A stretch of 40,067 nucleotides of DNA, from contig JAIOSL010000008.1 in assembly GCA_021107635.1 (NCBI GenBank), positions 1-40,067 of the forward strand, written 5' to 3'. The stretch is from an archaeon (GTDB lineage Archaea > B1Sed10-29 > WALL01 > JAGHAM01). Shown one piece after another: positions 1,759-32,848 of the stretch (position 1 is its first letter; every line of letters starts with the position of its first letter). The notes beneath the pieces are model-generated. The model made no database searches and had not been told where the DNA came from. It saw nothing but the letters and a program-made list of their open reading frames with translations. The translations under genes were made by a program, and so were the position numbers.

Positions 1759-2280
1759 ATGTACTATGATTTGCTCGTAAGAACCTCAAAAGCAAGAGAA
1801 ACAGCAGAAGAACTTGGAATATCAACGTGTCCACATGTAGAACTAGAACCAAACCAACTAACCAGGTCCTACGAAAAGAACAAAATCGTATTCGTGAGAG
1901 GAGGCACACTAGAACAAAACAAAAAGACGGTACGCTCGCCTTGTGACGTACTACTAGATGCAACAAGAATAGATCCAAATGTTGTACAAGTAGCAAAAGA
2001 CAACAATGTCACTTTTGGTATCACTTTACACCAATTCTTATACACCAAGCAATTCAAACGTGCATCACTAATCCGTTCTTACTTCCGCTTAATCAAACTA
2101 TACAATAAAATGAACTCGTCAATTTTGCTGGTTAGCGGAGCAAACAACAATTTTGAAGTCAGGACACCAGAACAACTAGCTTCACTAGGCATCTTCCTTG
2201 GCCAAACAAAACGTCAGGCACGCTGGAGCACATCAAAAATTCCAGAAAACATCCTATCCAAAAAAGAGGTGAAAATGTAA
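1759..2280 (+). CDS. rnp3: Ribonuclease P protein component 3 (Rpp30)
   Basis: A 173-aa member of the Rpp30 TIM-barrel-like family. With Pop5 it supports the RNase P RNA that matures tRNA 5' ends. Recognisable stretches are KIVFVRGG followed by CDVLLDATRIDPNVVQVAKDN, and GITLHQFLYTKQFKRASLI. The SANNNFEVRTPEQLASLG segment corresponds to the family's conserved 'SGA...RSPxDL' loop near the C-terminus. It is shorter than many homologues (about 200-230 aa). It starts 7 nt after the upstream gene and abuts the next ORF directly (TAA-ATG). Confidence 0.9.
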   Translation: MYYDLLVRTSKARETAEELGISTCPHVELEPNQLTRSYEKNKIVFVRGGTLEQNKKTVRSPCDVLLDATRIDPNVVQVAKDNNVTFGITLHQFLYTKQFKRASLIRSYFRLIKLYNKMNSSILLVSGANNNFEVRTPEQLASLGIFLGQTKRQARWSTSKIPENILSKKEVKM

Positions 2281-2421
2281 ATGCACGGTAAAGATACTTT
2301 AGACATAATACTGTTTTTCCAAGCAATACTCGGCAGCATAATTTTCTTAGTAATCTTGGTACTCTTAATGTTTGCATCTCGCTATTTATGGAAGCGATTC
2401 AAAAAGAAGGCGAAAAAATGA
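2281..2421 (+). CDS. Small single-pass membrane protein (46 aa) between rpp30 and pop5
   Basis: Too short for the ORF track. It begins at the ATG immediately after the rpp30 stop, with GAGGTG at 2266-2271 giving 9-nt spacing. It ends in a TGA that overlaps the pop5 ATG (ATGA, 2418-2421). The product starts MHGKDTLDII and has one hydrophobic helix of about 21 residues (roughly 11-32, FQAILGSIIFLVILVLLMFA). The tail is strongly basic, WKRFKKKAKK, predicting the C-terminus in the cytoplasm. I do not recognise a family. The good ribosome binding site, membrane-like composition and stop/start coupling on both sides argue that it is a real gene. Confidence 0.75.
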   Translation: MHGKDTLDIILFFQAILGSIIFLVILVLLMFASRYLWKRFKKKAKK

Positions 2422-6943: not shown

Positions 6944-7354
6944 ATGGCATTCATAACAACATCAAAAAAAACAGCAAACAAACTCGCAGAAGCTCTAGAA
7001 CAAGTACTCCCAAGCTCTGAATACCAGCCAAGAGGAAACAAAAGCATAGATCAAATAATACGCATCGCCCGCAAAAAAGGACATGAACGAGTAATAATCA
7101 TAACAGAGAAGCCTCCAACAATCCAATTCATCAAGCTAGATCAAAACAATTGGCAATGGATTCAAAAAACAATCAAAATAAAAGAATATACAATAACAAA
7201 ACACTCAAAAATAGCTACTCTACAAAGCACTCCAGAGCTTGCACAACTATTTGACGTTCAAAATCAGCAAAGTCAAAATCAACTAATACAACAAAGCCAC
7301 TCCTTGCTATTCACACAAAACACAAAAACTCTGCTAAAAATAGAGGAAAAATAA
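6944..7354 (+). CDS. Brix domain protein (archaeal Imp4-like)
   Basis: A 136-aa archaeal Brix-domain protein thought to act in pre-rRNA processing. The features are FITTSKKTANKLAEALEQVLP, YQPRGNKSIDQIIRIARKKGHERVIIITEKPPTIQFIKL, the usual opening half of the domain. The C-terminal half is glutamine-rich (NQQSQNQLIQQ) and less conserved, and the protein is somewhat short for the family. It begins directly after the rpoP stop, and its TAATG junction overlaps pcc1 by one base. Confidence 0.82.
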   Translation: MAFITTSKKTANKLAEALEQVLPSSEYQPRGNKSIDQIIRIARKKGHERVIIITEKPPTIQFIKLDQNNWQWIQKTIKIKEYTITKHSKIATLQSTPELAQLFDVQNQQSQNQLIQQSHSLLFTQNTKTLLKIEEK

Positions 7355-7575
7355 TGAATCTGAATCTCCAAATCAACGTCCGAAACCCCAAAAAAGCACA
7401 AGCACTCGCAAAAGCCTTGCAAGACGGCAAAACTAAACGAGCTGAAGTTACAATCACAGCAAAAAAAGAAAACATTGACATTCAAGTAAACGCACAAGAC
7501 CTAATAGCACTAAGAAGTGCAGCAAACAGTTACCTACGACTGCTTGACTCATGTTTAAAAATAATCGAGGGATAA
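7354..7575 (+). CDS. pcc1: KEOPS complex subunit Pcc1
   Basis: A 73-aa protein matching the small Pcc1 fold (beta-beta-alpha-beta-beta-alpha). The C-terminal DLIALRSAANSYLRLLDSCLKII is the recognisable helix with the 'aLRaAlNSylR' motif. Pcc1 dimers hold Kae1 in the KEOPS complex that completes t6A modification of ANN-decoding tRNAs. TsaC, which supplies the threonylcarbamoyl-AMP precursor, is at 29204-29815. No Kae1, Bud32 or Cgi121 is in the window. It overlaps the Brix gene by one base. Confidence 0.88.
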   Translation: MNLNLQINVRNPKKAQALAKALQDGKTKRAEVTITAKKENIDIQVNAQDLIALRSAANSYLRLLDSCLKIIEG

Positions 7576-12516: not shown

Positions 12517-13085
12517 TTTTTGGTCTCCTTAACTATTTCCTGGCCAAGCTTTCTAGCGGATTCTATTGATTCCAAGTCTTTTTTTACGTCTCCTGGTTTT
12601 TTTCCGAATCCGATTGCGCCGAACTTGCTATAAAATTTTTGTTTATCTCCTATCATTTGAAGTCCTTGATCTGTTGACCAATTTTTTAATACGTTGAAAG
12701 CCATTTCATGTCCTCCATGTTTGTATTGTCCAACTGTTATCACTCCAAACTTTTTACCTAAAAGTTTTTTCCCGTTCATTGCTGTCCAGAGGAAGCGGTC
12801 TATAAAAATTTTGGTTAATGAGCTTACGTTGTTGGACCATACAGGAGTTGCTATTATTATTGCATCTGCTTGCTCTGCCTTTGAGTAAATTGCTTGTATG
12901 TCATCGTTTTGAGGGCATTTATCGAGGCAGGCGCTGTGGCCTTTGCATGGCATTATGTTTTTCTCGGCTAGGAGAACCAATTCCGTTTCCGTGCCGTTCT
13001 TTTCTATTTCTTCTAGCGTGGTTCTGAGCATAATCTCTGTGTTCCCTCCCCTCCTCGGGCTTCCACAAATCCCAATCACTTTCAT
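12513..13085 (-). CDS. Flavodoxin-fold NAD(P)H-dependent FMN reductase-like protein
   Basis: A 190-aa flavoprotein of the NADPH-dependent FMN reductase/WrbA-like group. KVIGICGSPRRGGNTEIML is the FMN phosphate loop, and ATPVWSNNVSSLTKIFIDRF is the second flavin-contacting stretch. A cysteine cluster, PCKGHSACLDKCPQNDD, resembles the region where iron-sulfur flavoproteins bind a cluster, but the spacing (C-x5-C-x3-C) is not the classic one. The track start at 13172 reads back into porB; ATG 13085 starts right at the fold. The gene sits inside the oxidoreductase/ACD operon, so it may pass electrons from ferredoxin. That role is inference. Confidence 0.85.
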   Translation of the reverse strand: MKVIGICGSPRRGGNTEIMLRTTLEEIEKNGTETELVLLAEKNIMPCKGHSACLDKCPQNDDIQAIYSKAEQADAIIIATPVWSNNVSSLTKIFIDRFLWTAMNGKKLLGKKFGVITVGQYKHGGHEMAFNVLKNWSTDQGLQMIGDKQKFYSKFGAIGFGKKPGDVKKDLESIESARKLGQEIVKETKK

Positions 13086-13092
13086 TTTATCA

Positions 13093-32111: not shown

Positions 32112-32848
32112 GTCTTTCTTTTTGAAACTCTAGATGCAATCTCTATAAGAACTATTAGTACCGCACCAAGAAACAAGAGCATTATTATCCCATCAATCCA
32201 AGGTAAACCGCTTACTGCCAGGCGTTTTTCAGCTTTACTGCGATGATGTTCTCCATCAAACTCATATTCAACTATTAACTGTATACTCGTGCTACCTTTT
32301 GCATTGGTACTTGCTTTTATTGTTTCAACCAAATCTCTGCTCTCCCCACCTTTCATACTACCAAGTTCACGTCTAGTGGGGTCATACATGTACATTCCGG
32401 GATTTTTAGTGACAACTACCTGATAATTAACATTATAAACCATGAATTCTCCCTGATTCTTAAGTTTAAACGCTAAATCAACACTCTCACCCTTGCCAAC
32501 ATTTCCACTAGAAAATTCCATGCGTTCAATCACCAACATAGGCTTTTCTACAATAACGTTAATATTTTCTCCTTTCGCGCTTATTGGATACTCTCCTGGT
32601 TGAGTTGGAGCTTTGAAAGAAACATTTGCATGAAATGGACTTGCACTTGCTGGAACTAACACTTCTTGTTCTTGGTCTTGAAACAAAACTTTAACCAGGT
32701 GTTCTATCTGAGAAGAACTTACACTGTAAGTAACAGTAAATGAGTCTTCCGCAAAAACGCGTTTTTGATGAACTGAAAGCGTTGCATTCGCTGGAACAAC
32801 TATACTAATAATCAGGCAAGCTAGTAGGATAGTTTTCATATTCATCAT
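32108..32848 (-). CDS. Exported beta-sandwich protein with C-terminal membrane anchor
   Basis: A 246-aa protein with a signal peptide (MKTILLACLIISIVVPANA). Two beta-sandwich-like regions follow, the second (MEFSSGNVGKGESVDLAFKLKNQGEF) resembling CARDB/NEW3 domains. A C-terminal membrane helix (WIDGIIMLLFLGAVLIVLIEIA) has a basic tail. ATG 32848 has GGAG 9 nt upstream; ATG 32839 is the alternative. Its 5' end overlaps the 3' end of the preceding exported-protein gene by 44 bases in another frame. The stop overlaps the convergent GTPase gene by 4 bases. Function unknown. Confidence 0.8.
   Translation of the reverse strand: MMNMKTILLACLIISIVVPANATLSVHQKRVFAEDSFTVTYSVSSSQIEHLVKVLFQDQEQEVLVPASASPFHANVSFKAPTQPGEYPISAKGENINVIVEKPMLVIERMEFSSGNVGKGESVDLAFKLKNQGEFMVYNVNYQVVVTKNPGMYMYDPTRRELGSMKGGESRDLVETIKASTNAKGSTSIQLIVEYEFDGEHHRSKAEKRLAVSGLPWIDGIIMLLFLGAVLIVLIEIASRVSKRKT

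Follow-up and report, generated by a model that had tools for sequence, protein, structure and literature searches.

The window analyzed here, a 40,067-nucleotide stretch of archaeal DNA, raises the question of why a 46-codon open reading frame (ORF) for a putative membrane peptide should lie between rpp30 and pop5, two genes for RNase P subunits, and whether its product might tie that enzyme to the membrane.

Gene structure and translation signals

The window lies on contig 23 of 60 of a 1.2-Mb draft genome whose closest named relatives are records of Candidatus Diapherotrites. Its genes run in the order dph2-like, L15e, an RNA_binding (PF01877) protein, rpp30, the 46-aa ORF, pop5, proteasome alpha, SBDS, and exosome genes, with the dph2, SBDS, and exosome names having been assigned by reading the sequence rather than by profile search. 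Adjacent RPP30 and POP5 genes have been described in the archaeal exosome/proteasome superoperon (PMC4919917), and the sequence-only reading of this locus, which took such adjacency to be usual in archaea, agrees both with that report and with the gene coordinates in the genomes surveyed. The window shares with the superoperon all of the listed genes from L15e to the exosome genes, but it adds a membrane ORF between rpp30 and pop5. The source genome also encodes an archaeal RNase P RNA; therefore, the ribonucleoprotein form of RNase P exists in this genome.

Direct reading of the sequence bore out the gene structure that had been proposed. The ATG of the ORF (2281-2283) begins on the base directly after the rpp30 TAA (2278-2280), a GAGGTG motif lies within the last rpp30 codons at a spacing of 9 nt from this ATG, and the ORF TGA (2419-2421) shares bases with the pop5 ATG (2418-2420) (Table 1). 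The upstream signal of pop5 itself is a weak AAGGCG, and translational coupling from the ORF to pop5 is plausible.

Table 1. Features of the rpp30-pop5 junction in the window
Feature	Position	Strand	Evidence
rpp30, RNase P protein p30, 173 aa	1759..2280	+	PF01876, E = 2.1e-15
GAGGTG Shine-Dalgarno-like site, end of rpp30	2266..2271	+	Sequence
46-aa ORF, predicted single-pass membrane peptide with basic C-terminal tail, orphan	2281..2421	+	
Predicted membrane helix, residues 9-31	2305..2373	+	Best 23-residue hydropathy window; AlphaFold helix
Lys/Arg-rich tail, residues 34-46, predicted cytoplasmic	2380..2418	+	Sequence, K/R count, positive-inside rule
Run of six A	2413..2418	+	In-silico insertion
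ATGA overlap, ORF stop/pop5 start	2418..2421	+	Sequence
pop5, RNase P protein component 2, 137 aa	2418..2831	+	PF01900, E = 8e-17; relatives' start agrees

This arrangement could be explained without any function for the peptide, if inserted DNA had been kept open only so that ribosomes are handed on from rpp30 to pop5. The weak Shine-Dalgarno signal of pop5 points in this direction, as does the fact that ATGA-type rpp30-pop5 overlaps are common in relatives and are restored by the ORF; however, a relay has no need of a membrane helix, and hydropathy such as that reported below is rare among open random frames. We consider a pure relay unlikely.

Two further explanations concern the reading frames. 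The ORF is in the same frame as rpp30, with the TAA alone separating them, so that readthrough of this stop codon would give some Rpp30 a C-terminal membrane helix. It is very improbable that this is what the ORF represents: it has its own Shine-Dalgarno site and ATG, a shared frame is expected by chance in one case in three, and TAA is an efficient stop codon. pop5, on the other hand, lies one frame away, and the in-silico addition of one A to the run of six joins the ORF to it in frame; the product would comprise the helix, the basic tail, and a complete Pop5, as in the archaeal order described below. The ORF could then be the N terminus of a membrane-helix Pop5 that is made by -1 frameshifting or is concealed by a single A missed in the assembly. 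However, the pop5 ATG and the N-terminal motif of the relatives, M-x-P-[YF]-P, are retained, ATGA is the usual junction in relatives, and GAAAAAA is not a canonical slippery heptamer. Because the pop5 start and the ATGA are preserved, a real split is favored, and a fused Pop5 at this locus is quite unlikely.

Farther along the superoperon, a 136-aa ORF (6944-7354) with no significant Pfam match precedes Pcc1 (7354-7575) and, by position, is possibly a diverged Brix-like protein. Two stretches of approximately 0.6 to 0.7 kb each (12517-13092 and 32112-32804) contain no convincing gene, tRNA, or Rfam match.

Properties and distribution of the peptide

The proposal that the ORF encodes one hydrophobic helix and a Lys/Arg-rich tail held up by three measures. 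The most hydrophobic 19-residue window of the peptide spans residues 9 to 27 (mean Kyte-Doolittle value, 2.95), 7 of the final 12 residues are Lys or Arg, and AlphaFold, with single-sequence input, predicted one continuous helix over residues 4 to 45 (mean pLDDT, 87.5). According to our chance estimate, a random 135-nt stretch with a composition like that of the ORF is open in approximately 3 to 5% of cases; of the open stretches, 0.6 to 8% attain a TM-like score of 1.6 and no more than 0.05% attain 2.95. Since the ORF is more hydrophobic than nearly all open random frames, it is unlikely to be a chance frame, although translation is not thereby implied. In synonymous codon bias, the ORF ranks at the 6th percentile among windows of real genes from this contig and at the 46th percentile among off-frame windows, and its codon-phase periodicity is not significant (p ~0.13 among open shuffles); these statistics, which draw on only 43 informative codons and are weak evidence, fit a young gene and not an old or established one. 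We infer that the ORF is translated, that its translation is coupled to that of pop5, and that its product is inserted into the membrane.

The distribution of the ORF contradicts the view that it is a conserved partner of RNase P. Including the source, 17 genomes of the phylum have both rpp30 and pop5, and the ORF is absent from all 16 others. In these genomes, the gap between the Pfam matches of the two genes is 59 to 83 nt, compared to 230 nt in the window, and rpp30 abuts or overlaps pop5, often by ATGA, which leaves no space for an ORF. Only one other genus of the family was available for comparison; its two genes lie within approximately 14 nt of each other, and its Rpp30 is 69% identical. 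The original reading was held to be refuted if close relatives keep the synteny but show frameshifts, stops, or no hydrophobic pattern in this interval. As far as conservation is concerned, this was largely borne out, in that the synteny is kept and the whole feature is missing.

No homologue of the peptide was found in Pfam, NCBIfam, PHROGs, PDB sequences, phage and plasmid DNA (tblastn), or 61 archaeal genomes. Known small-protein families in the first four of these collections gave only hydrophobic matches below threshold, membership being defined by a score over the curated cut-off or, where no cut-off exists (PHROGs and PDB), by a significant E-value. The best match in another genome (G021) was rejected, since its frame contains a TAG and is only 39% identical. 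No source of the ORF DNA was found elsewhere in its own genome, no insertion scar was found at the ORF, where the flanking repeats consist of a single 18-nt imperfect A-rich pair, no RNA family was found in the ORF region or the window, and no viral contig with rpp30 was found. Among 123 distinct Pop5 loci, there was no second separate membrane ORF just upstream of pop5 other than the candidate at L121, which was rejected as a split helix/Pop5 case because it looks like the last part of an rpp30-like ORF. Three other archaea (L071, L072, and L073) carry genes for soluble proteins of 107, 177, and approximately 132 aa between rpp30 and pop5; the 177-aa protein looks HD-domain-like by sequence.

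As judged from these searches, the 46-aa ORF is a lineage-specific singleton of its genus, and no homologues under purifying selection, by which an established gene would be recognized, were found. In size, single helix, basic tail, and lack of homologues, it resembles the orphan single-pass membrane microproteins of prokaryotes, but unlike them it lies between two conserved genes whose products are subunits of a single complex. It may simply be a young small membrane protein that has no role in RNase P and whose ORF originated within, or was inserted into, a constitutively expressed operon, from which it borrows its translation signals. We regard this explanation as a tentative but serious one. 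Its singleton status within the phylum, the lack of homologues, and the weak coding signals all speak for it, and hydrophobic peptides are common among young ORFs; the very exact fit between rpp30 and pop5 speaks against it, as does the location of the ORF exactly where another archaeal order has a membrane helix in Pop5.

Pop5 with an N-terminal membrane helix

The occurrence of that helix across a whole order is a more valuable result than the window ORF. The first clue came from a survey of long rpp30-pop5 gaps, in which the Pop5 ORFs of two archaea turned out to include a membrane helix. In almost every genome sampled from one order, the members of which are of the Sulfolobus, Desulfurococcus, Pyrolobus, and Ignicoccus types and the phylum of which we take to be Thermoproteota, an in-frame membrane helix lies at the N terminus of Pop5 and is followed by a Lys/Arg-rich linker. 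At a hydropathy cut-off of 1.8, 62 distinct Pop5 loci of the order qualified as helix bearing. Helix-bearing loci include L145/L165 (G308), L139/L166 (G401), L125 (G301), L135 (G365), L140 (G335), L144 (G419), L171-L175, L177, L179-L188, L190-L192, L194, L197, L198, L200, L202-L205, L207, L208, and L210-L216. The exceptions within the order are one truncated contig, one borderline score of 1.44, and two genomes of one genus (L199 and L209, from G436 and G452), which have neither the Pop5 helix nor a separate ORF; other members of their family have the helix, and in this genus it was either lost or never present. Families that belong to this phylum but not to the order lack the helix, and two flagged loci (L023 and L142) that lie outside the order and have no clear start were not counted.

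One genome of the order encodes a proteasome alpha subunit that matches PDB 6z46, presumably the Sulfolobus acidocaldarius proteasome, over all 242 residues; in this genome, the 3' end of rpp30 and the gene for a 140-aa Pop5 with the helix overlap, and the genes of the operon follow one another as they do in the window. Other genomes of the order are, we assume, those of S. tokodaii, Pyrolobus fumarii, Ignicoccus hospitalis, Desulfurococcus mucosus, and Thermosphaera aggregans. For Pop5 proteins of known structure from other archaea, the alignment begins only at residues 31 to 41. No description of the helix was found in the literature searched, outside which many subscription papers fall, and it may be described or annotated elsewhere; a paper comparing the protein subunits of RNase P among archaea says nothing of membranes.

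The Sulfolobus-type Pop5 and the window ORF are alike in that a helix and then a Lys/Arg-rich stretch are encoded after the rpp30 stop and ahead of the Pop5 core, within the same superoperon. They differ in that the Sulfolobus-type helix is in frame with the Pop5 core and forms one polypeptide with it, whereas the window, from an unrelated phylum, has a separate ORF that ends at 2421, one frame away. The window ORF also lacks the clade-wide conservation of the Pop5 helix, with which it has no detectable sequence similarity, and its tail is unlike the linkers in detail.

A possible membrane anchor for RNase P

Because the Pop5 proteins of the Thermoproteota order have a membrane helix that is encoded at this operon junction, the original suggestion that RNase P is tethered gains indirect support, and because this helix is the rule there, the idea is no longer idle; nothing supports the accompanying suggestion that the peptide tethers the ribosome or the exosome. 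A membrane anchor beside Pop5 is a real archaeal arrangement, although this does not imply that the window peptide binds Pop5. It can be envisioned that, in one genus of Diapherotrites, DNA inserted or extended where rpp30 meets pop5 gave rise to a gene for a 46-residue single-pass membrane protein, which would be translated from the Shine-Dalgarno site in the last codons of rpp30 and pass its ribosomes to pop5 via the ATGA. By the positive-inside rule, the basic tail of the peptide would lie on the cytoplasmic side. By analogy with the Sulfolobus-type protein, the most likely role of the peptide would be to anchor freshly synthesized Pop5-Rpp30, and hence some RNase P, to the membrane in trans, and the ORF may possibly be a split Pop5 anchor; binding of the peptide to Pop5 or RNase P is conjecture.

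We tentatively put forward such a young, lineage-specific peptide, coupled to pop5 and anchoring Pop5-Rpp30 in trans, and judge it equally plausible to a young peptide unlinked to RNase P. In its favor are the exact fit of the ORF, with its Shine-Dalgarno site and ATGA, hydrophobicity beyond that of chance open frames together with a single predicted helix, the RNase P RNA in the genome, the approximately 62 helix-bearing Pop5 loci, and the shared operon order in the genome with the PDB 6z46 match. Its absence from every other genome of the phylum, the lack of a homologue, codon bias and periodicity unlike those of an established gene, and the difference in detail between its tail and the Pop5 linkers count against it.

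In archaea, RNase P is usually regarded as soluble. That it has become tied to the membrane more than once, by the Pop5 helix across the Thermoproteota order and by a separate coupled peptide in a Diapherotrites lineage, is a somewhat doubtful generalization; if it is true, the window ORF would represent the Pop5 arrangement in a split form that arose independently. The order-wide helix, if it holds up, would place the maturation of tRNA 5' ends at the membrane in model archaea such as Sulfolobus, a case that can be tested in a genetically tractable organism.
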